From the NCBI GenBank assembly GCA_013290035.1, contig JABCYT010000026.1, positions 1-13,610 of the forward strand: a stretch of DNA of 13,610 nucleotides, read 5' to 3'. Shown here piece by piece: positions 1-13,610 of the stretch. Numbering within the stretch: the first letter of the stretch is position 1; each line of letters opens with the position of its first letter. Below the pieces are notes generated by a model. It ran no database searches. It was not told the DNA's origin and saw nothing but the letters and a program-made list of their open reading frames with translations. The position numbers and the translations under genes are program-made. The stretch is from Alphaproteobacteria bacterium. Its GTDB lineage: Bacteria > Pseudomonadota > Alphaproteobacteria > Reyranellales > Reyranellaceae.

Positions 1-1432
1 CCGCCACCTGCTGCATCACCGTGTAGGTGCCGGTGCCGATATCGTGCATGCCGGCCTCGACCAGCGCCGAGCCGTCGCTCGTCAGCGTGACCCTTGCCTT
101 GGCCGGCCAGCGCCAGTGCGTGTAGATCGCACCGGCCATCCCCTGCCCGACCAGGTAGCGGCCGTCGCGCATCGAGCGCGGCTCGGGCGTCCGCTTCTCC
201 CAGCCGAAGCGCGCCGCGCCCTCGGTCAGGCACCGGCGCATGGCACGGGTGGAGAACGGCCGGCCGCTCAGCGGATCGATCGCGGTGTCGTTCAGCAGTC
301 TCAGCGCCACCGGATCGATGCCGGTTTCGTACGCCAGCTCGTCCATCGCGCTTTCCAGCGCGAAATGCCCCAGCGCCTCGTGCGGCGCGCGCATGGCCGT
401 CGGTGTGTTGCGATTGACATGAACGATCTTGTGGTTGGTCGCGATGCCGCCGCTCGCAGCCCACAGCGAGCGCGTCGCCAGCGCGGCATATTCGATGTAG
501 TTGTCGAACACCGGCGTCGGCGAAATGCTCTCGTGGCGGATGCCCAGAAGCTTGCCGTTCTTGTCGGCGCCCAGCGCGATCGTCTGGATGGTGGCCGCCT
601 GATGGCCGACCATGGAATACATCTGGGCGCGCGTGAGCTGCAGGCGCACCGGCCGCTCCAGGACCTTGGCGGCAAGCGCCGCCAGCAGAGTATGGGGCCA
701 GACATAGGCCTTGCCGCCGAAGCCGCCGCCCAGGAAGTGGGATACCACATTGATCTTCTCCGGCGGCAGGCCGAGCACGATGGCCAAGAGTTCCCGCACG
801 CCGAAAATGTGCTGGGTGGTTTCATAGAGCGTCAGCGTGCCGGCGGCGTCCCACATCGCCGTCGTGGCGTGCGGCTCCATCTGGTTGTGATGGCGATCGG
901 CCGTGGCATAGGTGCGCTCGATCCTGATGGCAGCACTCGCGATCGCCTTGTCGGCATCGCCGACCGACGAGGCCACCGGCCACAGGAATTGCGGAGGATC
1001 GACGGCTTCCCGCGCCGTCTGCAGCCCGAACACGATGGGCTGCTGCGCGTCGTACGCGACCTTGATCAAGGTGCCGGCATGGGCCGCCTGGTCGAGCGTC
1101 TTGGCGATGACCAGAGCGATCGGCTGGCCGGCATAGTGGATCTCGTCGTCCTGCAGCGGCAGATAGGACTGCCCATGCGGATGCAGATGGCTCCAGGGTT
1201 TGGGCGTCGGGTTCATGCGCGGCATGTTGCGGTGGGTGAACAGCGCCAGCACGCCGGGCGCCGCCCCCGCCGCGGCGGTGTCGATCGACACCGTGCGTCC
1301 GCGGGCGATCGTGCTGTGGACGATGGCGGCGTGCACGGCGCCTGCGACCGGAACGTCGGCGGTGTAGCGGGCAGCGCCGGTCACCTTCAGCCATCCATCG
1401 ACGCGGGACAGGGCCTGTCCAATGGCGGTCAT
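1..1432 (-). CDS. Molybdenum hydroxylase, molybdopterin-binding subunit (PaoC/YagR-like), 3' part missing
   Basis: Large catalytic subunit of a xanthine-dehydrogenase-family enzyme, which binds the Mo-cofactor and oxidises the substrate (aldehydes, if the PaoABC comparison holds). Starts at ATG 1432, whose ATGA overlaps the stop of the FAD subunit; AGGAG lies seven bases upstream. 477 residues are visible; family members have about 730-780, so the C-terminal third, with the catalytic Glu region, lies beyond the left edge. Seen: the N-terminal segment RVDGWLKVTGAARYTADV (about residues 10-27), typical of the family; GGGFGGK at 235-241, the Mo-cofactor loop; MRAPHEALGHFALE from 347, equivalent to the MRAPGE region of PaoC, with His in place of the usual Gly. 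The order [2Fe-2S]-FAD-Mo matches paoABC/yagTSR and cox operons. The family is certain; the substrate is inferred from the FAD subunit. Confidence 0.9.
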   Translation of the reverse strand, partial: MTAIGQALSRVDGWLKVTGAARYTADVPVAGAVHAAIVHSTIARGRTVSIDTAAAGAAPGVLALFTHRNMPRMNPTPKPWSHLHPHGQSYLPLQDDEIHYAGQPIALVIAKTLDQAAHAGTLIKVAYDAQQPIVFGLQTAREAVDPPQFLWPVASSVGDADKAIASAAIRIERTYATADRHHNQMEPHATTAMWDAAGTLTLYETTQHIFGVRELLAIVLGLPPEKINVVSHFLGGGFGGKAYVWPHTLLAALAAKVLERPVRLQLTRAQMYSMVGHQAATIQTIALGADKNGKLLGIRHESISPTPVFDNYIEYAALATRSLWAASGGIATNHKIVHVNRNTPTAMRAPHEALGHFALESAMDELAYETGIDPVALRLLNDTAIDPLSGRPFSTRAMRRCLTEGAARFGWEKRTPEPRSMRDGRYLVGQGMAGAIYTHWRWPAKARVTLTSDGSALVEAGMHDIGTGTYTVMQQVA

Positions 1433-2424
1433 GCGCGGGCTCCTGCGCTCTGCAGCGCGCGCAGGCTGACGCGCCGGGCCAGTTCGACCTTGAAGCCGTT
1501 GCCGGCGAGCGGCCTTGCATCGGCGAAGGACGTGGCGATCGCCGACTTCAGTGCCTCGACATCGTCCAGCGACGCGCCGCGCAGGGCCGTCTCGGCCGCT
1601 GTCAGCCGCCACGGCTTGTGAGCCACGCCGCCCAGGGCCAGTCGCGCGGAGCGGATGCGCCGACCGTCGGTCGCAAGTGCAGCCGCCGCGGAGACCAGCG
1701 CGAACTCGTAGGACTGCCGGTCGCGAACCTTCAGGTAATGCGAAGCCCGCCCAGCTTCCTGCGCCGGCACCTCGACAGCGACGATCAGCTCACCGCGCTC
1801 GAGCGCGGTGTCGCGCTGCGGCGTGTCGCCGGGAAGGCGGTGGAAATCGCCGAACGGAATCGACCGCTCGCCGCTGCGCCCGCGCACGATGACATGGGCG
1901 TCGAGCGCCGCAAACGCTACCGCCACGTCGGAGGCGTGGGTGGCGACACAGGCTTCCGACCAGCCGAAGATCGCATGGTTGCGATTGAGGCCGCGCAGGG
2001 CCGCGCAGCCCGAACCCGCCCGGCGCTTGTTGCAGGGCAGATCGTCGCCGTCGCGGAAGTAGGGGCAGCGCGTGCGCTGCAGGATGTTGCCGCCGATGGA
2101 CGCCATGTTGCGCAACTGGCCGGAGGCGGCAAACAGCAGCGCCTCGGCGATCACTGGAAAGCGCCGTCGCACCTCGACGTCGGCCGCAACGTCGCTCATG
2201 CGGGCCAGCGCGCCGATGCGCAGGCCGCCGTCGGGCACCGCCTCGATGCGCGCCATGTCCGGCAAACCGTTGATGTCCAGGAGCCGCTCGGGCAGCGCGG
2301 CACGGTCCTTCATCAGCCCCAAAAGGTCGGTGCCGCCGGCAATGAAAGCGAGCGCCGGATCGCGGGCATGGGCGGCGATGGCCATCGCCGCATCGCCGGC
2401 GCGCGACAGGGCGAACCGATGCAT
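1429..2424 (-). CDS. Molybdenum hydroxylase, FAD-binding subunit with four-cysteine [4Fe-4S] insert (PaoB/YagS-like)
   Basis: 331-residue middle subunit that passes electrons from the Fe-S clusters through FAD. FAD-binding signatures are FIAGGTDLL (27-35) and ASIGGNI (108-114). Directly after the second is a cysteine-rich insert, with QRTRC, CNKR and GSGC around C120, C131 and C140, and a fourth Cys at C159. This layout is known from E. coli PaoB and 4-hydroxybenzoyl-CoA reductase beta subunits, where the insert holds an extra [4Fe-4S] cluster; it is absent from ordinary CoxM/XdhB subunits. The closest match by eye is PaoB, including the NR-HAI and C-A-H-SD pattern. The gene starts three bases after the stop of the [2Fe-2S] gene, with GGGAAGG upstream, and its stop overlaps the start of the molybdopterin gene. 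Translational coupling and a fixed subunit ratio are likely. Confidence 0.9.
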   Translation of the reverse strand: MHRFALSRAGDAAMAIAAHARDPALAFIAGGTDLLGLMKDRAALPERLLDINGLPDMARIEAVPDGGLRIGALARMSDVAADVEVRRRFPVIAEALLFAASGQLRNMASIGGNILQRTRCPYFRDGDDLPCNKRRAGSGCAALRGLNRNHAIFGWSEACVATHASDVAVAFAALDAHVIVRGRSGERSIPFGDFHRLPGDTPQRDTALERGELIVAVEVPAQEAGRASHYLKVRDRQSYEFALVSAAAALATDGRRIRSARLALGGVAHKPWRLTAAETALRGASLDDVEALKSAIATSFADARPLAGNGFKVELARRVSLRALQSAGARA

Positions 2425-2427
2425 GGG

Positions 2428-2991
2428 TCAGCGCCTTCCCGTCGCCGCTTCGGCAATTGCCTCGACGATATTGGGATAGCAGGCGCAGCGGCAGAGATTG
2501 CCGCTCATGCGCTCGCGAATCTCGGCGTTCGACAGGTCCGCCAGGGTGAGGGAGCGGGCCACGTCGGCCGTGGCGGCGCTCGGCCAGCCGGCCTTTGCCT
2601 CTTCGATCATGGCCACGCCCGACATGATCTGGCCCGACGTGCAGAAGCCGCATTGAAAGCCGTCATGCTCGACGAAGGCCGCCTGGACGGGATGGAGCCG
2701 CCCGCCGTCCTCCAGCCCTTCGATGGTGGTGATCCGCCGGCCCTCCTGCATCGCCGCCAGGGTCATGCAGGAAAGCACGCGGCGTCCGTCGATATGCACG
2801 GTGCAGGCGCCGCACTCGCCACGGTCGCAGCCCTTCTTCGTGCCGCTGAGCGCCAGCATGTCGCGCAGAGCGTCGAGCAGCGTCGTCCGCGGCTCGACCG
2901 CGATCGTGCGCGGCCGGCCGTTGACGGTGAGGCGCACGGACAGGGGCGCCGATACATCCGCCTTGGGAATGGGCCTGGTCCTGCTGCGCAT
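2428..2991 (-). CDS. Molybdenum hydroxylase, [2Fe-2S] subunit (PaoA/YagT-like, no Tat signal)
   Basis: 187-residue small subunit with two [2Fe-2S] clusters. The plant-ferredoxin-type site is C55-x4-C60-x2-C63-x11-C75 (GCDRGECGACTVHIDG). The second, helical site uses C114-x2-C117 (CGFC) and C167-x-C169 (LCRC). I chose ATG 2991 over the in-frame ATG at 3012 because AGGAG sits five bases before it, directly after the stop of the upstream reductase gene. E. coli PaoA carries a twin-arginine signal that exports the complex. Here the N-terminus (MRSRTRPIPKADVSAP) lacks a hydrophobic segment, so the assembled enzyme should be cytoplasmic unless the true start differs. The gene follows the RclA-like gene by ten bases, so the molybdoenzyme and the Rcl-like genes share a transcript. 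Confidence 0.92.
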   Translation of the reverse strand: MRSRTRPIPKADVSAPLSVRLTVNGRPRTIAVEPRTTLLDALRDMLALSGTKKGCDRGECGACTVHIDGRRVLSCMTLAAMQEGRRITTIEGLEDGGRLHPVQAAFVEHDGFQCGFCTSGQIMSGVAMIEEAKAGWPSAATADVARSLTLADLSNAEIRERMSGNLCRCACYPNIVEAIAEAATGRR

Positions 2992-3001
2992 TTCCGCTCC
3001 T

Positions 3002-4411
3002 TTACGAGGCATTCATCGCCAGCCGGGGCGCCACATTCGACAGCAGCGGCCCCAGCCCCTCGGCGAAGGTCAGATGCGTAATGACCGCGTCGCGCACGAT
3101 CGGGTAAGGCGTCCTTGCCAGCATCGCCATCTGCACGGCCGCCATCACCTCGCCCGCTTCCGAGCCGAGCATGGTGAAGCCCAGGATGCGGTCGTCGTCT
3201 TCGCCGACCATGACCTTCATGAAGCCCTGCGTTTCGTCGGTCGCCTCGGTGCGCAACACGGCGCTCATCGGCAGCTTGGCGACGCGCGCCGCGATGCCTT
3301 GCCGCTCGGCCTCGCGTTCGTTCAGTCCGACATGGGCAAGCGGCGGCTCGGTGAACAGGCAACGCGGCACCAGCCGATCGCGCGTGCTGCGCTTGCCGCC
3401 GGCCATGTTGTCCCTGACGATGCGGAAGTCGTCGACCGAGACGTGGGTGAACTGCGGGCTGCCGGCGCATTCGCCGATGGCCCAGACATCGGGCGCGGTC
3501 GTTTCCAGCCGCTCGTTCACACGAATATATCCGCGATTGTCGAGCTCGACGCCGGCCTCCTCGAGACCGATGCCGGTGGTGTTGGGGATGCGGCCTGCCG
3601 CCACGAGTATGTCGCTGCCCTCGATCGTCCGTTCGCCGGCGGCCGAGCGCACCGTCACGGTCACTTTCTTTCCACTCTCTCCGTCGACCTTGAGCACTTG
3701 GGTGGACACCAGGAACCCGACGCCTTCATCGCTCAGGAGGCGCTGCACGGCATCCGCGGCGTCGACGTCTTCACGGCTGATGATCTTCGGTCCCGGTTCA
3801 ATGACGGTGACGCGGCTGCCGAAGCGGCGATACGCCTGGGCCATTTCGATGCCGACATATCCGCCGCCCAGCACGACCAGATGCGCGGGGGCATAGTCGA
3901 GCTCCAGCGCCTCGACATGGGTCAGCGGCTGGGCGGCGGCGAGGCCGGGAATGTCCGGGATGGCCGCATGGGTTCCGACATTCAGCACGATCTGATCGCC
4001 CGCGAGAAGGCGCGTGCCGCCGTCGTTCAATCGGACCTCGATCGTCCTGGCCGCCGCGAACCGCGCGGTCCCCATGATCAGGTCAACGCCGCTCCTCTTG
4101 TAGGCGTCGAGGTGAAAGGCGACCTCGCGGTCGACCATGGCGCGCTTGCGCTGTCGTACCCTTGTCATGTCCGTCTTGACGGCGCCGTTCATGGATCCGA
4201 ACTGGGCGGCATGGCTTGCCAGATGGGCGATCCGGGCGCTCCAGATTTCGTTCTTGCTGGGCATGCAGGCCACGTTGGGGCACGAGCCTCCCACCCATTG
4301 CCGTTCCACCACGGCCGTGCGCTGGCCCGTCTGCGCCAGATGCCAGGCCAGATGCTTGCCGCCTTGTCCGCTGCCGAGAATCACCGTCTGGAAAGTTTCT
4401 ACTTGGGGCAT
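3002..4411 (-). CDS. RclA-like FAD/NAD(P)H disulfide oxidoreductase
   Basis: 469-residue class I pyridine nucleotide-disulfide reductase. GSGQGG (13-18) binds FAD, GGSCPNVACMPSK carries the redox pair C44/C49, GGGYVGIE (182-189) binds NAD(P)H, and AIGECAG (311-317) is the second FAD contact (Glu replaces the usual Asp). The stretch around 318-350 (SPQFTHVSVDDFRIVRD, then GKRST and DRLVP) closely resembles E. coli RclA, a reactive-chlorine-induced flavoprotein reported to reduce Cu(II). The active-site spelling CPNVAC and the C-terminal HLTFAEGL (H446, E451, where most members have HPT-x-xE) are more like mercuric-reductase relatives. GGAGG lies five bases before ATG 4411. The gene follows the DUF417 gene by 27 bases, recalling rclA-rclC. 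It is RclA-like rather than proven RclA; MerA-like or generic dihydrolipoamide-dehydrogenase-family labels are alternatives. Confidence 0.85.
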   Translation of the reverse strand: MPQVETFQTVILGSGQGGKHLAWHLAQTGQRTAVVERQWVGGSCPNVACMPSKNEIWSARIAHLASHAAQFGSMNGAVKTDMTRVRQRKRAMVDREVAFHLDAYKRSGVDLIMGTARFAAARTIEVRLNDGGTRLLAGDQIVLNVGTHAAIPDIPGLAAAQPLTHVEALELDYAPAHLVVLGGGYVGIEMAQAYRRFGSRVTVIEPGPKIISREDVDAADAVQRLLSDEGVGFLVSTQVLKVDGESGKKVTVTVRSAAGERTIEGSDILVAAGRIPNTTGIGLEEAGVELDNRGYIRVNERLETTAPDVWAIGECAGSPQFTHVSVDDFRIVRDNMAGGKRSTRDRLVPRCLFTEPPLAHVGLNEREAERQGIAARVAKLPMSAVLRTEATDETQGFMKVMVGEDDDRILGFTMLGSEAGEVMAAVQMAMLARTPYPIVRDAVITHLTFAEGLGPLLSNVAPRLAMNAS

Positions 4412-4438: not shown

Positions 4439-5020
4439 CTAACGTGTCGTGGCTTGCCGTGATTCCATCACCCTCTCGACATCCTGCTTCAGCAGATAGA
4501 ATGACGCTGCGAAGAGAACGACGTCCTTCATCAGGAACGGCACGTTGCCCACCATGGCAGGGAAGCCGCCGGCCGAGGGCGCCCAACCATCGGGCATGAA
4601 GGGGATGATGCTGACGGTCGACAGGAAGGTGACGCACGACCCGGCGGCACCCAGGATACCCAGCCGCTTGTTCCAGAAGCCAAGGAACAGCAGCGCCCCG
4701 AATGTCCATTCCGACGCGCCCAGGAACCGGCTCGCGCCGCGAACGCCGAAGGCGGGATACATCCAGGAAATGAGCGGGCCATTGCTGATGAACGGGATCA
4801 GCACCTGGGCCTCATACTCGAACCACTTCTGGTAGCCGAACAGCAGGAAGATGAGCACCATCGCGGCGCGCATCAGATGGTAGTCGAGATCCTTCGTCAG
4901 AAGGCCGAGACGCGCCATCGCCTTCGTCAGCAGATTGACGGGAATGTTCAGCAGGGCGTCGCCCGCTGTTGTCGTCTCTCGTGGACTGCCGTACGGGACT
5001 TCGACTTTGCCGTCTTGCAT
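4439..5020 (-). CDS. DUF417/YkgB-family inner-membrane protein (RclC-like)
   Basis: 193 residues. The start is set at ATG 5020 because GGAGAG precedes it by four bases; in-frame ATGs at 5053 and 5083 lack such a site. There are four likely membrane segments at about residues 47-63, 98-115, 120-140 and 165-178. Motifs shared with E. coli RclC (YkgB) include the GYQKWFEYEA region (62-71; RclC has a similar K-F-x-YEA), PFISNGPLISW (76-86), NKRLGILG (117-124), GWAPSAGGFP (145-154) and FLMKDVVLFAAS (162-173). RclC helps E. coli survive reactive chlorine; its molecular job is unknown, and DoxX-like quinone contact has been suggested for the wider fold. First gene of the minus-strand operon, directly before the RclA-like gene, which supports the assignment. 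No homologue of small RclB is visible, and the regulator in this window is LysR-type rather than the AraC-type RclR. Confidence 0.85.
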   Translation of the reverse strand: MQDGKVEVPYGSPRETTTAGDALLNIPVNLLTKAMARLGLLTKDLDYHLMRAAMVLIFLLFGYQKWFEYEAQVLIPFISNGPLISWMYPAFGVRGASRFLGASEWTFGALLFLGFWNKRLGILGAAGSCVTFLSTVSIIPFMPDGWAPSAGGFPAMVGNVPFLMKDVVLFAASFYLLKQDVERVMESRQATTR

Positions 5021-5057
5021 GCGACTCTCCGTCCAGGGTTCTGGGCGCAACATGCAG

Positions 5058-5069
5058 CGAACGCGTTCG
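5058..5069. promoter_or_regulatory. 12-bp perfect palindrome upstream of rclC-like gene
   Basis: CGAACGCGTTCG is a perfect 12-bp palindrome, 38 bases before the rclC-like start, and the half-site CGAACG recurs at 5085-5090. The position suits an operator or promoter element of the minus-strand operon. No regulator can be assigned from sequence. Confidence 0.4.
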
Positions 5070-5094
5070 GCGCGGCAGACCACTCGAACGGATA

Positions 5095-5115
5095 GGAATT
5101 ATTCCCGTCGGGAAT
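5095..5115. promoter_or_regulatory. GGAAT/ATTCCCG overlapping inverted repeats (LysR-type box)
   Basis: Two overlapping palindromes: GGAAT-T-ATTCC (5095-5105) and ATTCCCG-T-CGGGAAT (5101-5115). The second also reads ATTCC-N5-GGAAT and so contains the T-N11-A frame of LysR-type regulator boxes. It lies 80 bases before the rclC-like start and 118 before the copC-like start, between divergent genes. The regulator is inferred to be one of the two LysR paralogues nearby. Confidence 0.55.
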
Positions 5116-5143
5116 GAAGGTGGATGCCCGGCGAGGCGCGGCC

Positions 5144-5162
5144 GGGAATAAGTTCTATTCCC
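5144..5162. promoter_or_regulatory. GGGAATA-N5-TATTCCC inverted repeat
   Basis: Perfect seven-base arms around AGTTC, 71 bases before the copC-like start. It uses the same GGGAAT half-site as 5095-5115, so this 68-bp stretch holds five half-sites. It could be a second operator for the divergent promoters. A terminator is unlikely because no gene ends nearby. Confidence 0.5.
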
Positions 5163-5233
5163 TCAAGCCAGCTATGCGCACGCCAGGCTGCGCCTATCTT
5201 GCCCGTCTCATCCTCTCGATGGAGGCCGTCACG

Positions 5234-5650
5234 ATGGCGCAACATTCCCGAGCCATTGCTCTTGCCGTTCTGTGCTTGCTGGGCTTTCAGGCGCATGCCC
5301 AGGCGGCCGACCGCGACACGCCACGGCCTCTTCGAATGGAAAGCGTGACCATCGGCGAACGCGGCACCGAAGTATTGCTCCAGTTCGATCGGCCCATCAG
5401 CCACGAGCGGTCGACGCTTTTCCTTGTCCTCAACGGCAAGGTCATCGAAACCATACATCCTCGCCTGGAAGCCTCACCCAAGGTGTTGTTCGCGAGGATC
5501 CAGACTCCGACACCAGGCGCCTACGTGCTGCGGTGGACGGTTTGTCCGCAGGGCAGCAATGACAGGTACGACGGAGAATTTCCGTTCACGGTCGGCCAGA
5601 TGGCGGCAAGCGCGGGCGAGCCCCGTCAACCGGGCTCGCGTGTCGAATAA
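5234..5650 (+). CDS. Small exported CopC-domain-like protein
   Basis: 138 residues. ATG 5234 has GGAGG eight bases upstream. Residues 6-25 form a hydrophobic signal segment ending AHAQAA, so cleavage near residue 25 and a periplasmic location are likely. The remaining ~110 residues resemble the CopC/YobA beta-sandwich: FDRPISHERS (51-60), a middle strand ending in PKVLFARI (82-89), then PTPGAYVLRWTV (92-103) and GEFPFTVG (114-121). The usual CopC Cu(II) ligands, an N-terminal His after cleavage and a D-x-H near the end (DGH), are not seen; the matching stretch reads SNDRYDG. Copper binding is therefore doubtful, though one Cys (C104) lies there. Divergent from the RclC/RclA-like operon with a shared promoter region, so a common stress response is plausible. 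Its 3' end overlaps the lysR1 3' end by 25 bases. Confidence 0.7.
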   Translation: MAQHSRAIALAVLCLLGFQAHAQAADRDTPRPLRMESVTIGERGTEVLLQFDRPISHERSTLFLVLNGKVIETIHPRLEASPKVLFARIQTPTPGAYVLRWTVCPQGSNDRYDGEFPFTVGQMAASAGEPRQPGSRVE

Positions 5651-6540
5651 GGCCTGGCGAGCTCGGCTTCGACAAAATTTGCGAAAGCCCGCGCCTTGGC
5701 CGTCACCATCCGGCCCGTCGGAAACAAGGCCCAGCAATCGAGCGACGGCAGGTTCCAGTCGGGGAGGACCGCGCGCACCGCACCGGATGCAAGCTCCGGC
5801 GCAAACATCCATTCCGAGGCGATCGCATAGCCCAGGCCGCTGAGAACCGCGGCCCGCACCCCCTCGGCGGCGCTGACACGCAGCCGCCCCGACAAGGTGA
5901 CGGAAATATCGGAGGCACCCTGGCGAAAGGTATAGGTGTCGCCGCCGCCCGCCCGCTCCATCGTATAGATCACGGCGGAAAGTTGAGCGAGGTCGCTCGG
6001 CGCCTTCGGAACGCCGCTTTGCTCGAAGAAAGCCGGCGTTCCGACAACCAGTCGACGGCTTGTCGCGACCTTGCGCGCGATCACGGAGGAATCGTTCGGC
6101 ACCCCGGTGCGAAACGATATGTCCACGCCCTCCTGGATGAGGTCACCCGTGCTGTCGCTCAAGACGAGGTCGAGCACGAGGTTCGGGTGCTGATCGAGGA
6201 AGACAGGGAGCCGGGGCACGATGTGCAGGCGTGAGATCGTCACGCCGGCACTGGCTCGCAGGCGACCGGTGAAGCCTGCGGCAGCGCTCGAGATGGCGAT
6301 GTCTGCATCGCGTGCCTCGTCAATGATCTTGCGGGCGCGTTCGTAGAAGTCTTGGCCAGCTTCGGTCGGTGTCAGGCCCCGCGTCGAACGCATCAACAGC
6401 CGCACGCCGAACCGTTCTTCCAGGTGCGCGATGGATTTGGACACGGCCGGCTGGCCAATCTTGAGATCGCGTGCCGCTGCGGAGAATGACTTCGTCTCCA
6501 CGACACGAACGAACGTTTCCATGGTGCCAAGGCGATCCAT
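5626..6540 (-). CDS. LysR-type transcriptional regulator 1
   Basis: 304 residues, the usual family length. The N-terminal winged helix-turn-helix covers about residues 1-60 (SFSAAARDLKIGQPAVSKSI as recognition region, then LEERFGVRLLMRSTRGLTPT), followed by a linker helix and a periplasmic-binding-protein-like effector domain from about 90. ATG 6540 has GGAGG six bases upstream. It is a clear paralogue of the next gene upstream, lysR2, sharing most of the DNA-binding domain and motifs throughout the effector domain (RLHIVP, FRQGA, AAEGVRAAVL, PTGRM). It is not divergent from a target in the classic way; its 3' end runs into the copC-like gene. Plausible targets are the copC/rclC promoters or its own promoter. 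The effector is unknown. Confidence 0.95.
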   Translation of the reverse strand: MDRLGTMETFVRVVETKSFSAAARDLKIGQPAVSKSIAHLEERFGVRLLMRSTRGLTPTEAGQDFYERARKIIDEARDADIAISSAAAGFTGRLRASAGVTISRLHIVPRLPVFLDQHPNLVLDLVLSDSTGDLIQEGVDISFRTGVPNDSSVIARKVATSRRLVVGTPAFFEQSGVPKAPSDLAQLSAVIYTMERAGGGDTYTFRQGASDISVTLSGRLRVSAAEGVRAAVLSGLGYAIASEWMFAPELASGAVRAVLPDWNLPSLDCWALFPTGRMVTAKARAFANFVEAELARPYSTREPG

Positions 6541-6666: not shown

Positions 6667-7605
6667 CTAAAGGCGCGTCGCTTCACTCGGAGTGACAGTG
6701 ACGGCGCCCGGTTCTGATGACGCCCGCGTCAACTCCGCTTCGACAAATGCCGCGAAGGCGCGCGCCTTGGCGCTGGGCATGCGGCCGGTTGGATAGACCG
6801 CCCAGAGGTCCATTGGCGGCAGCGACCAGTCCGTCAGCACCCGTTGCACAGCACCTGACTCCAGCTCCGGACTGAACATCCATGACGACGTTATGGTCAG
6901 GCCCATGTCGGCCAATACGGCGGCGCGTACGCCCTCGGCCGCGTTCATCCGCAGCGGCCCTGAGACGGTGACTGAGACTTCGGTCGCCCCCTGGCGAAAG
7001 CACCATGTGCCGGCGCCCTCGCGGCTGTAGATCACCGCCGCGTGGCCGGCGAGCTCTGCGGGCGTCGCCGGCACTCCCGATCGGGCGAAATAGGCTGACG
7101 TCCCCAGCACATGGTGGGGGCAAGATGCCAGCTTTCGCGCCGAGAGCGACGTCGAGTCCGCGAGCGGGCCCATGCGCAGCGCGACATCCACGCCCTCCTC
7201 GATCAGGTCGATGATCCTGTCGTCGAGCACCACGTCCATGGTGAGACCGGGGTGCGCGCCGAGGAACTTCGGCAGGTGCGGTACGATGTGCAGCCGCGCA
7301 AAGGTGACGGCGGCGCTGATCCGCAGGCGCCCCGTCAGCCCCTTGCCGGCGCCGCGCGCCACCGCTTCGGCCTCGTCGGCTTCCTCGATCGACCGCTTGG
7401 CGCGCTCATAGAAGCTCTGCCCGGCTTCGGTCGGCGCGAGACCGTGCGTGGAGCGCATCAGCAGGCGCACGCCCAGGCGCGCCTCCAGCTGCGCCACCGT
7501 CTTGGAGATCGCGGGCTGACCCATGTTGAGCGCCCGCGCGGCGGCCGAGAATGACCCGGCTTCCACCACACGGACGAAAGCTTGCATTGCCGCCAGTCGG
7601 TCCAT
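6667..7605 (-). CDS. LysR-type transcriptional regulator 2
   Basis: 312 residues from ATG 7605, chosen because it aligns with the MDRL start of lysR1 and has GGA six bases upstream; ATG 7611 (two residues longer) is possible. The N-terminal helix-turn-helix contains SFSAAARALNMGQPAISKTV and RLLMRSTHGLAPTEAGQ, and the effector domain follows from about residue 90. Compared with lysR1 it has a C-terminal extension of about ten residues. It is divergent from the SDR and crotonase genes, the classic arrangement of a LysR regulator and its target, so it probably controls that pair. The inverted repeat ATTCC-N5-GGAAT overlaps its start region. The tandem paralogous layout suggests local duplication and then divergence of target or effector. 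Confidence 0.95.
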   Translation of the reverse strand: MDRLAAMQAFVRVVEAGSFSAAARALNMGQPAISKTVAQLEARLGVRLLMRSTHGLAPTEAGQSFYERAKRSIEEADEAEAVARGAGKGLTGRLRISAAVTFARLHIVPHLPKFLGAHPGLTMDVVLDDRIIDLIEEGVDVALRMGPLADSTSLSARKLASCPHHVLGTSAYFARSGVPATPAELAGHAAVIYSREGAGTWCFRQGATEVSVTVSGPLRMNAAEGVRAAVLADMGLTITSSWMFSPELESGAVQRVLTDWSLPPMDLWAVYPTGRMPSAKARAFAAFVEAELTRASSEPGAVTVTPSEATRL

Positions 7606-7609
7606 GCTC

Positions 7610-7624
7610 ATTCCATCCAGGAAT
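7610..7624. promoter_or_regulatory. ATTCC-N5-GGAAT LysR-type box at lysR2 start
   Basis: Perfect five-base arms (ATTCC, GGAAT) with a five-base spacer, giving the T-N11-A frame of LysR boxes. The same arms and spacing occur at 5101-5115. The site sits at the lysR2 start, where binding would block its transcription or translation initiation, and 154 bases before the divergent SDR start. Confidence 0.5.
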
Positions 7625-7777: not shown

Positions 7778-8527
7778 ATGCCGAAACTTGAAGGAAAGGT
7801 CGCCGTCGTCACAGGCGGCAGCAGCGGGATAGGTCTCGCCACCGCCAAGCGCTTCGTTGAAGAAGGAGCGTTCGTCTACATCACCGGCCGCCGCCAGGCC
7901 GAACTCGACAAGGCCGTCTCCGAGATCGGCCGCAATGTCACGGCCATCCAGGGCGATGTCTCAAACCTCGCCGATCTCGACAGGCTCTACGCGAAGGTCG
8001 GCGAGGGAAAAGGCAAGTTCGACATCCTCTTCGCCGGCGCTGGTATCCTCGACCCCCAGCCGCTCGCCGAGACCACGGAGGAACGTTTCGACAGGGTCTT
8101 TGCGATCAACGCTCGGGGGCTGGCTTTCACGGTCAAGAAGGCCCTCCCGCTCCTGAAAGACGGCGGAGCGATCATCGTGATTACATCGATCGCCGAGAGC
8201 AAGGGGATCCCCGGCTTCACCGCCTACAGTGCCACCAAGGCGGCGGTCCGCTCCTTCGTCCGCACGTGGACGGCCGAGTTGAAGGACCGTCGCATCCGGG
8301 TCAATGCGATCAGCCCCGGCCCGATCGACACGTCGATCTTCGAGCAACAGGCGCCGACCAAGGAAGGGGCCGACCAGGCCCGCGCCCAGTTCGCCGCAGC
8401 CGTCCCGTTCGGGCGGCTCGGCCGTCCTGACGAGATCGCATCGACCGCCTTGTTCCTCGCTTCTGACGAAGCAAGCTTCATCGCCGGCGTGGACCTCCCG
8501 GTCGACGGCGGCATGACCGCGATCTGA
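7778..8527 (+). CDS. Short-chain dehydrogenase/reductase (SDR), LysR-divergent
   Basis: 249 residues, classical SDR size. ATG 7778 opens MPKLEGKVAVVTGG; the ribosome site is weak (GAAAGAAAG). Seen: cofactor motif TGGSSGIG (12-19), catalytic S137, Y150 and K154 (YSATK), N111, and the C-terminal PFGRLGRPDEIAS / DLPVDGG pattern. The usual NNAG is FAGAG (85-89), a variation on the FANAG form I associate with SDRs next to LysR genes. ITGRR after beta-2 (35-39) suggests NADP(H). It probably interconverts an alcohol and a ketone; automatic labels such as glucose 1-dehydrogenase or 3-oxoacyl-ACP reductase would not be reliable. It is 38 bases before the crotonase-fold gene, so the two are co-transcribed. 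A role supplying the diketone for that enzyme is inferred. Confidence 0.93.
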   Translation: MPKLEGKVAVVTGGSSGIGLATAKRFVEEGAFVYITGRRQAELDKAVSEIGRNVTAIQGDVSNLADLDRLYAKVGEGKGKFDILFAGAGILDPQPLAETTEERFDRVFAINARGLAFTVKKALPLLKDGGAIIVITSIAESKGIPGFTAYSATKAAVRSFVRTWTAELKDRRIRVNAISPGPIDTSIFEQQAPTKEGADQARAQFAAAVPFGRLGRPDEIASTALFLASDEASFIAGVDLPVDGGMTAI

Positions 8528-8565: not shown

Positions 8566-9336
8566 ATGACGAAGTTCGAGGCGTACCGTGATGCGTTTCC
8601 CAACGCGCATCTCAAGCGCAAGGACAACGGTGTCCTCCAGGTCGCGCTGCACAGCAACGGGGGCAGGCTGGTCTTCAACGGCCACACGCACGAGCAGTTC
8701 GTCGATCTGTTCCATGCGATCGGCGAGGACCGCGACAACCGCGTCGTCATCCTCACGGGCACGGGTGAGGTGTTCATGGACACGATCGAGGCCGAAGGCT
8801 TCGATTTCTTCTCACCCCAGGGTTACGACAAGATCCTGCGCGAAGGTCGCAAGGTACTGATGAACATCCTCGACATCGAGGTGCCCATGATCACGGCCTT
8901 GAACGGCCCGGTGCTGCTGCATTCCGAATATGCGCTGCTGACCGATATCGTCATCGCGACTCCGGAAACGGTGTTCCAGGACAAGCCGCATTTCGATTTC
9001 GGCATCGTCCCCGGCGACAGCGTCAACCTCCTGTGGCCCGAGGTGATCGGCTCGATCCGCGGCCGCTATTTCATCCTGACGCGGCAAAAGCTCGATGCCC
9101 AGACGGCCAAGGATTGGGGCGTGGTCAACGAGATCGTGCCCGCCGACCGGCTGCTGCCCCGCGCGCACGAGATCGCCGACCAGATCGCGGTGCTGCCCCC
9201 GCTCACCAGCCGCTACACGCGCATCGCACTGACCCAGAAGCTGCGCCGGATCATTGACGAAGGCGTCGGATACAGCCTGGCGCTGGAAGGGATCAGCGCC
9301 GCCGACGTCGCCCGGAGTATGGCAGCGAAGAATTGA
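8566..9336 (+). CDS. Crotonase-fold protein resembling 6-oxocamphor hydrolase (beta-diketone C-C hydrolase candidate)
   Basis: 256 residues. GGAG lies seven bases before ATG 8566. It has a crotonase fold but is unlike CoA-dependent hydratases. It resembles Rhodococcus 6-oxocamphor hydrolase (OCH) over nearly its whole length: VVILTGTG (60-67), IEVPMITALNGPV (104-116), FQDKPHFDFGIVPGD (137-151), GRYFILTRQKLDA (166-178) and LLPRA (196-200). Residues H42, H119, H142, D151 and E241 fall where I recall OCH His45, His122, His145, Asp154 and Glu244, a constant offset of three with no gap. The two catalytic glutamates of enoyl-CoA hydratase are not evident. The inferred reaction is hydrolytic retro-Claisen cleavage of a cyclic 1,3-diketone to a keto acid, without CoA. 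The upstream SDR could form the diketone. Convergent with the CoA-ligase gene, with only 11 bases between stops. Confidence 0.88.
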   Translation: MTKFEAYRDAFPNAHLKRKDNGVLQVALHSNGGRLVFNGHTHEQFVDLFHAIGEDRDNRVVILTGTGEVFMDTIEAEGFDFFSPQGYDKILREGRKVLMNILDIEVPMITALNGPVLLHSEYALLTDIVIATPETVFQDKPHFDFGIVPGDSVNLLWPEVIGSIRGRYFILTRQKLDAQTAKDWGVVNEIVPADRLLPRAHEIADQIAVLPPLTSRYTRIALTQKLRRIIDEGVGYSLALEGISAADVARSMAAKN

Positions 9337-9347
9337 TTCGATGCGCA

Positions 9348-10958
9348 CTAGCGACGGGATATCTTGATGCCGGCAGCCTCGCGGTCCCAGGTCCGAGGCG
9401 TGACGCCACGTTCGCGCAGCTTGTACTTCTGAATCTTGCCGTTCTCGGTCGCGGGCAATGCCTCGCAAAATTCGATAAAGCGCGGGACGGCAAAATAGGG
9501 CATGCGTGGCTCGCAGAAGCGGATCAGATCGACCTCGCTGAGACGGCTGTCGGGTTGCCGGACAATGGCCGCCATGACCTCGTCCTCGGCGAGTTCGGAC
9601 TGGACGGGGAAAACCGCCGCCGTGGCGATTTCGGGATGGCTCAGCAGGACCTGCTCGACCTCGAAGGACGAGATGTTCTCGCCGCGCCGGCGGATCGCGT
9701 CCTTGAGCCGGTCGACGAACTTGAAATAGCCGTCGCGGTCGCGGATCACCCGATCGCCGGAATGGAACCAGCCGCCGCGCCACGCCTCTGCGGTCTTGTC
9801 CGGCGCAGCGAAATAGCCCCTGGCGAAAGCGAGCGGCTCATCGGCGCGCAAGATCAATTCGCCGGGTTCGCCATCCGGCGCGTCGCGGCCATCGGCATCG
9901 ACGACACGCGCGGCGAAACCCGGGCAGACGCAGCCCATGTAGCCGGCGCGCTGCCGATCGATCTTCGTGCCGATGACGAAATTCGTTTCCGTCGAGCCAT
10001 AGCCGTCGAGCAAACGGATGCCCGAGCGCTCGACGAACGCGTCGAGGAAGTGACCGGGCACGCCGGGCGCCAATGCGACACGCGTGCGGTGTTGGCGCTC
10101 CTCGGCGCCGGGCGGGCGCGACAGCAGGATCGGCACCATGGCCCCCAGAAGATAGGTGACGGTGGCGCCGCTGCGGACAAGGCCGTCCCAGAAGCCGGAG
10201 GCGGAGAAGCGCGGCTCGAAGATCGCCGTCGCGCCGGCGATGAGCGCCTGGAAAAAAGTGTTGAGCGCATTGGTATGGAACAGCGGCAGGGTGGTGCACA
10301 GAACATCCTGCTCGCCGATATCGAGCAGATGCGCGGTGTGATGCCCCCACCAGAAATACTGGGCCTGCGGACAGCACACGCCCTTCGACAGCCCCGTCGT
10401 GCCGGACGTGTAGAGGATCGCCAGCAGATCGTCGGGACGCGGCAGCGCCGCCGCCACCGCCGTTCCAAGCGCCGGCAGGAACTGCGCCAAGGCCGGCGGC
10501 GAGACGCCGTCGCGCGGCTCATCGATCAGCCAGATCCCTTCCAGCGGCAGGGCATCGAGTTCGACGAAATCGAGCGACCCCAGGAGCTCCGCTTCGATGA
10601 CGAGCAACCGGGCGCCCGAGTTCGTCAGGATATGCTGCAGCTGGGCACCGCGCGAGGCGGTGTTGATCGGCACCAGGACGGCGCCGAGCCAGCCGCAGCC
10701 GAGAAAGATCTCGATGAACTCCGCGCGGTTCGAGCACATCAGCGCCACCCGATCGCCGACGCCGATGCCGGCCTTGGCGAGCCGGCCCGCCGCCCGCGCC
10801 GCGACATCGGGCGTCTCGGCGAAGCTCCAGCGACGCTCGCCGGCTTGAACCAGGGTCTTGGCGCCGAATTTCGCCGCCTGCCGCCGAAGCATCGACGGCA
10901 GACAGCGTTCGCCGGCGGGAAAAAGCGGCAGCCCCTCAGATGGCCGCAGAGCCGACAC
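9348..10958 (-). CDS. AMP-forming acid-CoA ligase (CaiC-like)
   Basis: 536-residue ANL-superfamily adenylate-forming enzyme that activates a carboxylic acid with ATP and joins it to CoA. Motifs in order: YTSGTTGLSKG (183-193, phosphate loop), LPLFHTNALN (224-233), GYGSTE (319-324), GWFHSGD (396-402), the hinge region VDRLKDAIRRRGENIS (415-430), and ENGKIQK with catalytic K508. No signal peptide. The start is GTG 10958 with GGAGGG just upstream, inside the 3' end of the SDR gene, so the two overlap by 23 bases. Last gene of the minus-strand catabolic operon. By eye it is closest to carnitine/crotonobetaine-CoA ligase-like and medium-chain ligases, which does not fix the substrate; an alicyclic or ring-opened acid is inferred from the neighbours. 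Confidence 0.93.
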   Translation of the reverse strand: MSALRPSEGLPLFPAGERCLPSMLRRQAAKFGAKTLVQAGERRWSFAETPDVAARAAGRLAKAGIGVGDRVALMCSNRAEFIEIFLGCGWLGAVLVPINTASRGAQLQHILTNSGARLLVIEAELLGSLDFVELDALPLEGIWLIDEPRDGVSPPALAQFLPALGTAVAAALPRPDDLLAILYTSGTTGLSKGVCCPQAQYFWWGHHTAHLLDIGEQDVLCTTLPLFHTNALNTFFQALIAGATAIFEPRFSASGFWDGLVRSGATVTYLLGAMVPILLSRPPGAEERQHRTRVALAPGVPGHFLDAFVERSGIRLLDGYGSTETNFVIGTKIDRQRAGYMGCVCPGFAARVVDADGRDAPDGEPGELILRADEPLAFARGYFAAPDKTAEAWRGGWFHSGDRVIRDRDGYFKFVDRLKDAIRRRGENISSFEVEQVLLSHPEIATAAVFPVQSELAEDEVMAAIVRQPDSRLSEVDLIRFCEPRMPYFAVPRFIEFCEALPATENGKIQKYKLRERGVTPRTWDREAAGIKISRR

Positions 10959-11667
10959 TCAACCCTCCGCAGACATAGAGAACCTGGCCGGTGATGAAGC
11001 CGGACTGGCGCGCGGCGAAGAACATCACGGCGTTCACCACATCCTCGGGCCGGCCGAGCCGCTTCATCGGAATCGCCGCGGTGAGCGCGGCCTCGCTGTC
11101 GCCGCCGGCCGGAATGAGTTCGTGGAACATGGCGGTCCCCTGAACGGGGCCGGGCGCCACCATGTTCACGGTAATCCCGAACGGCGCGAGTTCCAGGGCC
11201 CAGCTCCTTCCCATGCCGACGATCCCGGCCTTGGTGGCGGAATAGGCGGTGCGGCCGATGGCGCCGAGCGCGGCGCGCGAGGAGATCATCACCACCCGGC
11301 CGAACTTGTTCTGCTTCATCGCGGGCAGGCAGGCTTGCAGCAGGATGAGGGCGCTTCCGAGATGAAGCTGCGCGAGGTCGCGTATGTCCTCGGCCGAGGC
11401 CTGGTCGACGAGCTTGTGCCGGGTCACGCCGGCATTGTGGACGAAATGCGTGATGGCGTGGCGGCCGGCGATTTCGACGGCGGCCTGGCTTGTCGCCCGC
11501 GCGTCGAGCAGATCGATCTCGACGGCGTGAAGAAGCGGATGACGCAACGCGGGTTTCTCGCGCGCGAGCGAAAAGACCTCGAAGCCGCGGTCGAGCATCT
11601 CCTTGACGATGGCGGCGCCAATCCCCGCGCCGCCGCCGGTAACGATCGCAGTCTCGCGTTCGCTCAC
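10936..11667 (-). CDS. Classical SDR oxidoreductase (FabG/acetoacetyl-CoA reductase-like)
   Basis: 243 residues starting at GTG 11667; its GTGA overlaps the stop of the cyclase gene. An upstream in-frame ATG (11796) would add 43 arginine-rich residues that do not fit the family. Intact classical SDR: TGGGAGIG (10-17), NAG (78-80), S129, Y142 and K146 (AYSATK), PGPVQ, and PMKRLGRPEDV near the end. The C-terminus GGLSVGSAAI fits 3-ketoacyl-ACP or acetoacetyl-CoA reductase-like members. It probably acts as a dehydrogenase on a hydroxy intermediate, perhaps a CoA ester, in the same pathway as the ligase. It is co-transcribed on both sides through overlapping genes, and the GTG start plus overlap suggest translational coupling. 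Confidence 0.92.
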   Translation of the reverse strand: MSERETAIVTGGGAGIGAAIVKEMLDRGFEVFSLAREKPALRHPLLHAVEIDLLDARATSQAAVEIAGRHAITHFVHNAGVTRHKLVDQASAEDIRDLAQLHLGSALILLQACLPAMKQNKFGRVVMISSRAALGAIGRTAYSATKAGIVGMGRSWALELAPFGITVNMVAPGPVQGTAMFHELIPAGGDSEAALTAAIPMKRLGRPEDVVNAVMFFAARQSGFITGQVLYVCGGLSVGSAAI

Positions 11668-12458
11668 GCCGTCGCCTCGCGGCGCGGCACCAGCGCGAGA
11701 ACCCGCAGCGGGCTGCCCGACCCTTTGCGGATCTTGAGCGGCGCCGCCACGATCACGGCGCCGGTCGGCGGCAACAAATCGAGGTTGGTCAGGCATTGCA
11801 GGCCGTACCGGCCCTTGCCGTGCATGTAGTAATGGGCCGGGTACGGCGGGTTGAAATGGTTGGCCTGGCCGGAATCGGTGCCGATGGTCTCGGTCCCGAA
11901 GCCATGGACGTCACGCTGATCGACGAGCCAGCGCACCGCCTCGGGGCACGGTCCGGGCGAATGCTGCCCATCGTCGGCCATGTTGACGTAGTCGCGGCCC
12001 ACCCGTTTCGACCAGTCGGTGCGCAGCAGCACCCAGTTGCGCGCCGGAATGCGGCCGTGCCGGCGTTCCCACGCCTCGATATCGGCAACCGTCAGCTCGT
12101 AATCGGGATTGCCGGCGGCCTGGCTGCTGATATCGATCACGCAAGCGGGCGCGATGAAGGCCGATACCGGAATCGTATCCACCGAGTTGTTCGGCACGTC
12201 CTTGCCGGACACCCAGTGAATCGGCGCGTCGAAATGGGTGCCGGTATGCTCGCCCATCGACAGATTGTTCCAGTACCAGGCGGGCCCGCGATCGTCGTAG
12301 CGCGAGACTTCCTCCATCCGGAACGGCGCGCATTGGCCGAGCTCGGGCGGCAGCACGATGGTCGGGAAATCCGGCGTCAGGGTATGGCTAAGATCGATCA
12401 CCGTGATGCTGCCGTTGGCGACGGCCGTGGCAAAGCCCAGCAGGCCTTGAGGATCCAT
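11664..12458 (-). CDS. Cyclase-family (PF04199) metal-dependent hydrolase
   Basis: 264 residues from ATG 12458, preceded by GGGAGG ten bases upstream. An ATG at 12479, whose ATGA overlaps the stop of the upstream gene, would add seven residues and cannot be excluded. The metal motif HTGTHFDAPIH (71-81) matches the HxGTHxDxPxH signature of kynurenine formamidase, isatin hydrolase and related hydrolases, giving H71, H75, D77 and H81. A second site His fits H209 (PAHYYMHG). The Glu normally twelve residues later in KynB-type enzymes is Q221 (YGLQCLTNLDLLPP). It likely hydrolyses a cyclic amide, lactone or enol-type bond; the substrate is unknown. The operon setting with SDRs and a CoA ligase favours ring-opening catabolism over tryptophan metabolism. 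Probably cytoplasmic, since I see no signal peptide. Confidence 0.9.
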   Translation of the reverse strand: MDPQGLLGFATAVANGSITVIDLSHTLTPDFPTIVLPPELGQCAPFRMEEVSRYDDRGPAWYWNNLSMGEHTGTHFDAPIHWVSGKDVPNNSVDTIPVSAFIAPACVIDISSQAAGNPDYELTVADIEAWERRHGRIPARNWVLLRTDWSKRVGRDYVNMADDGQHSPGPCPEAVRWLVDQRDVHGFGTETIGTDSGQANHFNPPYPAHYYMHGKGRYGLQCLTNLDLLPPTGAVIVAAPLKIRKGSGSPLRVLALVPRREATA

Positions 12459-12475
12459 TGGTGTCTCGCCTCCCG

Positions 12476-13610
12476 TCATGAGCCGAGCTCGCGCTCGACC
12501 GCCTTGGGATTGACGGCGAGGCGCGTGCGGATGTCCTGGGCAACGTCGCCCACGAACACGTCCTCCAGGCCGCGCCGCAGAGCGTCAACCGTGGCGGCCG
12601 CCAGCGCGGCCGGGGCGACCTTGGGCGGCGGTACCGTCTGATACCATTCGGTTTCGAGCGGTCCGAAGAAGACGTTCATCACCTTGACGCCGCCCGGCCG
12701 CAGCTCGGCGCGCAGCGATTGCGCCGCCGACAAGCAGGCCGCCTCGGTGGCCGAGAAAGCGCCATAGGCCGGCCAGTTCATGAGCGCATAGACCGAGAGC
12801 AGGTTGACGAAGGCGGCCGCCGAATTGATGCCGTCCGCGCCGCGCGCGCGCAGGGTCGGGCCGAAGGCCTGGGCGAGCCGCATCAGCCCGAGATAGCGAA
12901 TGTCGATTTCCTCGCGGGCGACGGTTAGGCCCTTGCGCTCGATCATGCCGCCCGCCCGGACATGCTCGGCTGTGTTGATCAGGATATCGACGCGGGCGCC
13001 GATCTCGCCGGCGACGTCGTCGACCGAGACGCTGTCGGTCATGTCCAGCGGCACGATCTCGACCCGCTCGATCCGCCGCAGCGCCTGCTCGCCGGGAAAC
13101 GGCTTCCACGGATCGGCGAGGCCCACGAAGACGATGCCGGCTTGCGCATCGGACAAGGCTTTCGCCATCGCCTGGCCGACGGCATTGCGGCCGTCGGTGA
13201 TCAAGACACGGCGAAATTTCGGATCGCAGGTCAATTCGCGCCATTCCGGGTCGTCGGACATGTTGGGCGTATCTCGTTCCGGCAGAGCGATCGCCACGGC
13301 CTGGCCGCTGCGGTCCAGTTTGAAAGCCATCCTAACACGCTCGCCTTCGCGCGCATCGCCATGAAGATGGGTGACGATGGACGGGCCGCAATCGAGCGCC
13401 ACGACGCCTACACGCCACGGCATGCGCTCGCGGAAATAAACATCGATCGAGGTTCGGATCGTCGTCTCGGCGAGCAGTGTGCCGCCGTTGGCGACCTCCT
13501 CGAACGGAATGCGCGGCGACAGGCAACGCGGGCAGGCATCGCGTGGCGGGTAGATCGCCGCCCGGCAATCGGTGCAGACCTGGAGCGCGAAGCGTCCCTC
13601 GGCGGCGGCC
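12476..13610 (-). CDS. Zinc-ribbon/OB-fold (DUF35) protein fused to a degenerate SDR domain, 5' end missing
   Basis: The frame is open to the right edge, giving 377 visible residues. The first 115 or so form a DUF35-type module: zinc ribbon C-x2-C-x10-C-x2-C (VCTDC, then ACPRC) with YPPRDACPRC, then an OB-fold stretch (GGTLLAETT to AFKLDRSGQAVAIALP). DUF35 proteins partner thiolase/SCP-x-like or aldolase enzymes acting on acyl-CoAs. A linker leads into an SDR-like domain (from about base 13210) with family landmarks but damaged motifs. TGxxxGxG is TDGRNAVG, NNAG is NTAE, and YxxxK is F-SAT-E (Phe codon 12755-12757, Glu codon 12743-12745). The Ser 13 residues before the Tyr position is kept. 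The SDR half is therefore probably not an active dehydrogenase of the usual type; a structural or binding role is inferred. The first start codon lies outside the window. The stop overlaps ATG 12479 of the cyclase frame. Confidence 0.85.
   Translation of the reverse strand, partial: AAAEGRFALQVCTDCRAAIYPPRDACPRCLSPRIPFEEVANGGTLLAETTIRTSIDVYFRERMPWRVGVVALDCGPSIVTHLHGDAREGERVRMAFKLDRSGQAVAIALPERDTPNMSDDPEWRELTCDPKFRRVLITDGRNAVGQAMAKALSDAQAGIVFVGLADPWKPFPGEQALRRIERVEIVPLDMTDSVSVDDVAGEIGARVDILINTAEHVRAGGMIERKGLTVAREEIDIRYLGLMRLAQAFGPTLRARGADGINSAAAFVNLLSVYALMNWPAYGAFSATEAACLSAAQSLRAELRPGGVKVMNVFFGPLETEWYQTVPPPKVAPAALAAATVDALRRGLEDVFVGDVAQDIRTRLAVNPKAVERELGS

Follow-up and report, generated by a model that had tools for sequence, protein, structure and literature searches.

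What is the function of an open reading frame (ORF) that is annotated as an enoyl-coenzyme A (CoA) hydratase but that carries the active-site residues of a C-C bond hydrolase? The ORF lies at positions 8566–9336 of contig JABCYT010000026.1, from assembly GCA_013290035.1 of an alphaproteobacterium of the Reyranellaceae, and was analyzed within the whole 13,610-nucleotide contig (the window). An earlier note had likened its product, a crotonase, to 6-oxocamphor hydrolase (OCH). Based on its sequence and modeled fold, the ORF very probably encodes a common, rarely recognized hydrolase that cleaves C-C bonds in 1,3-diketones. It is thus probably a further, misannotated member of an already known enzyme type.

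The ORF begins with ATG, preceded by AGGAGA. In a three-way alignment, its product is 53% identical to the β-diketone hydrolase ABDH from Anabaena sp. PCC 7120 (alr4455; PDB 2j5g and 2j5s) and 47% identical to OCH (PDB 1o8u). His42, His119, His142, Asp151, and Glu241 fall in columns that are identical in all three proteins, as expected from the earlier claim that the complete OCH active-site set is present. Counting along the 1o8u chain, these residues correspond to OCH His45, His122, His145, Asp154, and Glu244, so that the proposed constant offset of three holds after a single gap near residue 19. The numbering was confirmed independently: in 1szo, titled as the OCH His122Ala mutant, the alanine lies exactly opposite window His119. 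For ABDH, PMC3584854 gives Asp153, His144, Glu243, and His43 as catalytic residues. The spacing H-76-H-22-H-8-D-89-E, searched as an unanchored pattern, is matched in 120 of 120 homologs among the matches listed. A broader alignment of 60 rows shows His119, Glu121, His142, and Asp151 to be invariant and His42 and Glu241 to be at least 90% conserved. Because the spacing is kept in the listed homologs and the residues are conserved in the diverse alignment, the five-residue set is not a product of chance. The hydrolase frame of one relative, L090, has one TAG reported inside an otherwise good match.

Canonical enoyl-CoA hydratases use two catalytic glutamates, Glu144 and Glu164 in the rat enzyme. 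The first of these columns is occupied by Glu121 in the window protein and the second by His142; Glu fills both columns in two crotonases from the same genome (L003 and L004). The same assembly contains 16 other crotonase matches, and the full five-residue set was found in none of the seven that were aligned. An EchA15-like partial protein from this genome (L002) has His and Asp at the His142 and Asp151 columns and Ala at the His119 column. Pfam matches the window protein to ECH_1 only, and the 25 models listed out of 61 matching NCBIfam models all fall under their cut-offs (top score 114.4 versus 354 bits). Routine annotation therefore sees only a crotonase and misses the type, as the earlier note had anticipated.

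The nearest solved structures by sequence are ABDH (E = 8.4e-85) and OCH (E = 4.8e-70), followed by EchA15 (E = 5.2e-26). A first structure model, built from a narrow alignment, was set aside (predicted local distance difference test [pLDDT] 57.7), and a diverse alignment yielded a confident model with a pLDDT of 95.2. This model superposes on ABDH at 0.8 Å and on OCH at 1.0 Å, in contrast to 2.1–2.3 Å for EchA15-type crotonases (VIA-align), such that the whole modeled chain fits the solved OCH and ABDH members better than other crotonases. The EchA15-type proteins (PDB 3qk8, 3q1t, and 7m3w) are only 26%–28% identical to the window protein, although 3qk8 shares with it His and Asp at the His142 and Asp151 columns. 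One of them, 3q1t, may itself be a β-diketone hydrolase, as argued in PMC3584854.

In a quick tree, the window protein first joins proteins from soil and plant bacteria and next the ABDH group (SH-like approximate likelihood ratio test [SH-aLRT] 98), outside the OCH_1o8u clade. It has the same five residues as ABDH but differs from it at 47% of positions and has Ser152. From OCH it differs additionally in Phe37, which is Trp in OCH, and in that no camphor genes were recognized in the window. By sequence, the window protein is nearer to ABDH than to OCH. Considered together, the sequence, the active-site set, and the modeled fold make a strong case for an OCH/ABDH-type enzyme. The candidate C-C hydrolase of the earlier note stands as to type.

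The type is also not rare, contrary to what had been supposed. There are at least 120 homologs with 82%–97% identity to the window protein, and 228 stretches of species genomes encode a relative (78%–86% identity for the best 80 of the 228). Large protein sets also surround OCH and ABDH; the 120 proteins among the matches listed around OCH are 67%–96% identical to it, and they share no identifiers with the proteins in the window protein's own list. Within a sample of the phylum, however, a relative was detected in only 5 of 398 genomes at E 1e-50, own genome included (up to six candidates scored per genome). In the order, the count was 2 of 76, made up of the source genome itself and a single distant match, and none of 64 other genomes of the genus has a relative (kinship counted from the table). 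The hydrolase type is thus common, yet patchy in distribution. Close relatives occur in Alpha-, Beta-, and Gammaproteobacteria and also on plasmids, and this combination of high identity across classes, patchy presence, and plasmid location points to horizontal spread. The window is the complete contig C26 of a fragmented assembly (822 contigs, 74% complete), and for this reason may have been wrongly binned; its G+C content of 66% is inside the 63%–71% range of 13 other stretches from the same assembly.

A recurring set of genes surrounds the hydrolase in its relatives. We compared the window and the best 80 of the 228 loci; 62 of these loci extend 5.5 kb or more to either side of the hydrolase, and in them partner genes no farther from it than 5.5 kb were scored at identity thresholds set at 50%–60%. 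Of these 62 full-flank loci, 60 contain a LysR-family regulator, 55 a peroxiredoxin-like (AhpC/TSA) gene, 52 a glutathione S-transferase (GST), and 48 the short-chain dehydrogenase/reductase (SDR) typical of the set (SDRm). All four partners are present in 36 loci and at least three in 58, and an ene-reductase (old yellow enzyme, OYE) and an α/β hydrolase are found in 14 and 9, respectively. The same queries match 0–2 loci each outside 5.5 kb, and Pfam confirmed GST, AhpC-TSA, SDR, and Oxidored_FMN in sample members. RefSeq annotation of a Methylobacterium plasmid shows the hydrolase with SDR, peroxiredoxin-like, GST, and LysR genes, and that of a Rouxiella plasmid the same set plus an alkene reductase. 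On a Paraburkholderia plasmid (RefSeq annotation), a 73% identical relative adjoins peroxiredoxin-like, SDR, and LysR genes, and in Rhizobium tumorigenes a 65% identical relative lies beside transporters, with LysR, GST, alkene reductase, and peroxiredoxin-like genes 2–6 kb away.

The surroundings of five distant plasmid members (41%–47% identity) are mixed. Neither LysR nor SDR was found near the distant Deinococcus plasmid member; thiolase, acyl-CoA dehydrogenase, cytochrome P450, and SDR genes lie near the Rhodococcus member, LysR and SDRs near the Streptomyces member, and molybdenum-hydroxylase subunits near that of Paraburkholderia graminis, while an SDR adjoins the Sphingobium hydrolase. 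Two further distant hydrolases (L089 and L094, 40%–42% identity) stand beside a LysR gene (34%–38%), one with a peroxiredoxin-like gene and the other with a module-type SDR, so the association may be old. In P0282, an ABDH-like ORF lacking the hydrolase N terminus is fused to an SDR 59%–63% identical to the module SDR. This fusion could stem from the assembly or from a deletion, yet it suggests neighboring SDR and hydrolase genes in its source. Curcumin is a β-diketone. Three matching places lie on one plasmid (NZ_CP076854.1) of Rhizobium sp. WYJ-E13, whose source is Curcuma wenyujin, a turmeric relative, and a curcumin hydrolase, CurH, is cited in PMC12981152.

The window shares with this neighborhood a similar LysR, a hydrolase 78%–86% identical to those of the relatives, and a palindrome, ATTCC-N5-GGAAT. 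It differs in placing SDR1 between LysR and the hydrolase, where many relatives have GST, and in carrying a palindrome ahead of a second operon. The pairing with an SDR and a LysR regulator pointed out in the earlier note is thus present and extends, in relatives, to a multi-gene neighborhood with a shared palindrome. L061 and L071 also carry SDR1-like genes (50%–51%), at distances of roughly 6.4 and 2.2 kb, respectively, from their hydrolase genes, and in L061 an exact palindrome lies upstream of this gene.

The palindrome fits the T-N11-A pattern of LysR sites. In 1.50 Mb, there are 76 exact copies, compared with 0.62 expected from base composition and 0–4 copies of 29 rearranged 5-mers, and for 73 of the 76 a LysR, GST, hydrolase, peroxiredoxin-like, SDR1, or DUF417 gene follows no more than 260 bp downstream, the other 3 being unassigned. 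At least one copy occurs in 56 of 81 sequences. An exact copy lies within 160 bp upstream of 47 of 76 LysR genes, near −18 in the examples inspected; the core TTCC-N5-GGAA also marks 47 LysR genes, while shuffled sequences give 0.165 on average and 2 at most. The window has two exact copies (7610–7624 and 5101–5115); 0.27 palindromes are expected in it with up to one mismatch. The whole assembly has three copies versus one for the reversed control, the third lying inside a frame on contig C250. Twelve other genomes have 1–9 copies each, more than the reversed control in 10 of them. Of 18 loci fetched from these genomes, 13 were inspected: three are at clusters, nine are inside open frames of at least 100 amino acids, and one (L114) is between two frames. 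The off-cluster copies inspected look like chance occurrences, and control through the palindrome therefore seems confined to the cluster. In the window, we infer that the two palindromes place both SDR1-hydrolase and the DUF417/RclA-like/xanthine dehydrogenase-type (Xdh) operon under LysR1, with LysR2 as an alternative. The copy at 5101–5115 touches the first possible start of the divergent hypothetical protein.

These features can be combined in a single explanation, which we consider likely from sequence and modeling: a CoA-independent hydrolase of the OCH/ABDH type, with SDR1 as its partner and LysR1 acting at the palindromes, forms part of an inducible module for 1,3-dicarbonyl compounds. 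The enzyme would hydrolyze β-diketones in a retro-Claisen reaction independent of CoA. The His142-Asp151 pair would activate a water molecule to attack one carbonyl of the 1,3-diketone, His119, together with His42 and Glu241, would help to bind and protonate, and C-C cleavage would yield a keto acid; these single-residue roles are presumed to be as in OCH and ABDH. SDR1 would be the likely partner, interconverting diketone and hydroxyketone. LysR1 would be the likely regulator, at the palindrome in the LysR1/SDR1 gap and at that ahead of the DUF417/RclA-like/molybdenum-hydroxylase operon. The cluster is then best read as an inducible module for a reactive 1,3-dicarbonyl or for a compound converted into one. 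This reading draws on close relatives, in which the hydrolase is accompanied by a LysR of similar sequence, frequently preceded by the palindrome, and by GST, peroxiredoxin-like, SDR, and sometimes ene-reductase genes.

Several observations weigh against this explanation. GST, the peroxiredoxin-like gene, and the module SDR are absent from the window, and the best versions in its own 74% complete assembly are distant (46% for peroxiredoxin-like, 46% for GST, and 39% for SDR, the last being SDR2). LysR (LysR1, plus its paralog LysR2) is the sole module partner kept, and the module reading is thus carried over from relatives. The compared loci are the most similar ones and are mutually related, so their counts are not independent. 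No exact palindrome precedes 29 of the 76 LysR starts, and 25 of the 81 sequences lack any copy. At least two one-mismatch matches arise in 5 of 200 window shuffles, and the palindrome equals its control in one genome (G496, 1 and 1) and falls below it in another (G504, 4 and 6). In a Candidatus Rokubacteria metagenome-assembled genome (L067:3876-10786), DUF417, RclA-like, and Xdh genes 67%–81% identical to those of the window lie beside an 86% identical hydrolase, but this locus has neither LysR nor a palindrome with up to one mismatch. As for the enzyme, His42 is replaced by Gln in 1 of 34 alignment rows (L092). Ser152 (window 9019–9021), next to Asp151, is Gly in all 33 other rows of alignment A3 and is shared by P0001 alone (97% identical) among the 117 listed homologs in which the motif was found. 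Support for the branch that sets off the three outgroup rows in the tree is 45%, and several rows are long.

The best-surviving alternative, which we regard as unlikely though deserving of serious thought, retains a β-diketone hydrolase but places it in a plain carbon-source pathway of SDR1, hydrolase, CoA ligase, and β-oxidation, the GST and peroxiredoxin-like genes of relatives being incidental. The adjoining genes do include a CoA ligase, a PF04199 protein, and two further SDRs, and among distant members L100 is accompanied by thiolase, acyl-CoA dehydrogenase, and P450 genes and L102 by monooxygenase and CoA transferase genes. However, the presence of at least three of the four partners in 58 of 62 loci is too regular to be incidental, and the palindrome links the hydrolase to the DUF417/RclA-like genes rather than to the ligase.

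It is very improbable that the annotation is right and that the protein is a usual CoA-dependent crotonase, an enoyl-CoA hydratase/isomerase serving a degradation pathway. The ECH_1-only Pfam match, the RefSeq naming of relatives as enoyl-CoA hydratase/isomerase family, the adjoining CoA ligase, and the alignment of Glu121 with a Glu of L003 and L004 are in keeping with such a role. In contrast, the second catalytic Glu column holds His in the window protein and its family, the 25 NCBIfam models listed out of 61 are all under cut-off, and the match to ABDH and OCH is far closer than that to any CoA enzyme. An ordinary hydratase was rejected on account of the His at the second Glu column.

Slighter still is the chance of a true 6-oxocamphor hydrolase in a cluster for catabolism of camphor or a similar bicyclic terpenoid, since for all its OCH residues, 47% identity, and 1.0 Å superposition, and an adjoining SDR that could oxidize a hydroxycamphor-like alcohol, the protein lies on the ABDH side of the tree (the ground for rejecting a strict 6-oxocamphor hydrolase), the proteins listed around OCH are a distinct set, close relatives have a GST/peroxiredoxin/SDR/LysR neighborhood, and Pfam scans of 13 window ORFs, within the 13.6 kb in view, revealed neither a cytochrome P450 nor a Baeyer-Villiger family.

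The remaining genes of the window are listed in Table 1. The SDR1 ORF is readable from 7523, with SDR homology starting at about residue 86–88 of that frame. The L043 LysR, to which LysR1 and LysR2 are compared, is the regulator accompanying the hydrolase in that locus. A stretch of the molybdopterin-subunit frame is matched with 81% identity next to the hydrolase in L067, and the true start is probably inside the frame. The acyl-CoA ligase could activate a carboxylic acid product. The listed PF04199 and SDR2 frames, which run on one strand, overlap by 133 bases (11664–11796), and the actual start of SDR2 is therefore probably internal to its frame.

Table 1. Features of the window, with positions numbered from its first nucleotide
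Feature	Position	Strand	Basis or remark
β-diketone hydrolase, OCH/ABDH-type, crotonase fold, 256 aa (predicted)	8566..9336	+	Alignment, residue set, modeled fold
SDR1, candidate partner	7778..8527	+	TGGSSGIG and YSATK motifs; 38 bp upstream of hydrolase, same strand
ATTCC-N5-GGAAT palindrome	7610..7624	.	At LysR1 start, between LysR1 and SDR1-hydrolase
LysR1, LysR-family regulator	6667..7611	-	Probable start 7605; divergent from SDR1-hydrolase; 67% to L043 LysR
LysR2, LysR1 paralog	5626..6540	-	54% to L043 LysR; no palindrome at start
Hypothetical protein	5114-5650		Divergent from DUF417 operon; no Pfam match
Second exact ATTCC-N5-GGAAT	5101..5115	.	Upstream of DUF417/RclA-like/Xdh operon
DUF417 protein, RclC-like	4439..5083	-	Under NCBIfam RclC cut-off
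FAD pyridine-nucleotide-disulphide oxidoreductase, RclA/MerA-like	3002..4411	-	Under those NCBIfam cut-offs
[2Fe-2S] subunit, molybdenum hydroxylase (xanthine dehydrogenase type)	2428..3012	-	
FAD subunit of molybdenum hydroxylase	1429..2424	-	
Probable molybdopterin subunit of molybdenum hydroxylase	2..1612	-	Named by inspection, not Pfam; cut by contig end
AMP-forming acyl-CoA ligase	9348..10958	-	Passes NF004808 cut-off; tail to tail with hydrolase
SDR2	10936..11796	-	About 39% to module SDR of L043
PF04199 putative cyclase	11664..12479	-	Pfam
SDR-like protein	12476..13423	-	N-terminal partial OB_ChsH2_C match; frame open to contig end

For the clade as a whole, we lean toward a detoxification module over a catabolic pathway, to which the GST, peroxiredoxin-like, and ene-reductase genes of relatives and the RclA- and RclC-like genes of the window point. 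More tentatively, and as a possibility that we hold to be short of probable, OCH-type hydrolases may mainly not be camphor enzymes, a large clade of them belonging instead to a stress or detoxification module that is undescribed, has spread horizontally, and is under the control of LysR at the operator ATTCC-N5-GGAAT. Hydrolytic C-C cleavage of a 1,3-dicarbonyl would there act in concert with GST, peroxiredoxin-like protein, SDR, ene-reductase, and, in the window, DUF417/RclA-like and molybdenum-hydroxylase genes, and the inducer would be a plant or soil electrophile such as a quinone or vinylogous acid. No description of the neighborhood was found in open-licence PubMed Central titles and abstract starts, which is weak evidence of absence. 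PMC9751292 lists, near chlorite dismutase genes, a GST and a member of the enoyl-CoA hydratase/isomerase family; these could not be linked to the family of the window protein.

What is new here is a recurring neighborhood and a shared palindrome around ABDH-type hydrolases in many soil and plant bacteria. Diketone-desymmetrizing C-C hydrolases have synthetic uses. The finding points to a systematic annotation gap, in that common “enoyl-CoA hydratases” of soil and plant bacteria very probably cut C-C bonds without CoA. A regulator whose site is defined offers a way to its inducer, and with the conserved neighborhood and the candidate operator at hand, the natural substrate of ABDH-type hydrolases thus becomes a directly testable question.
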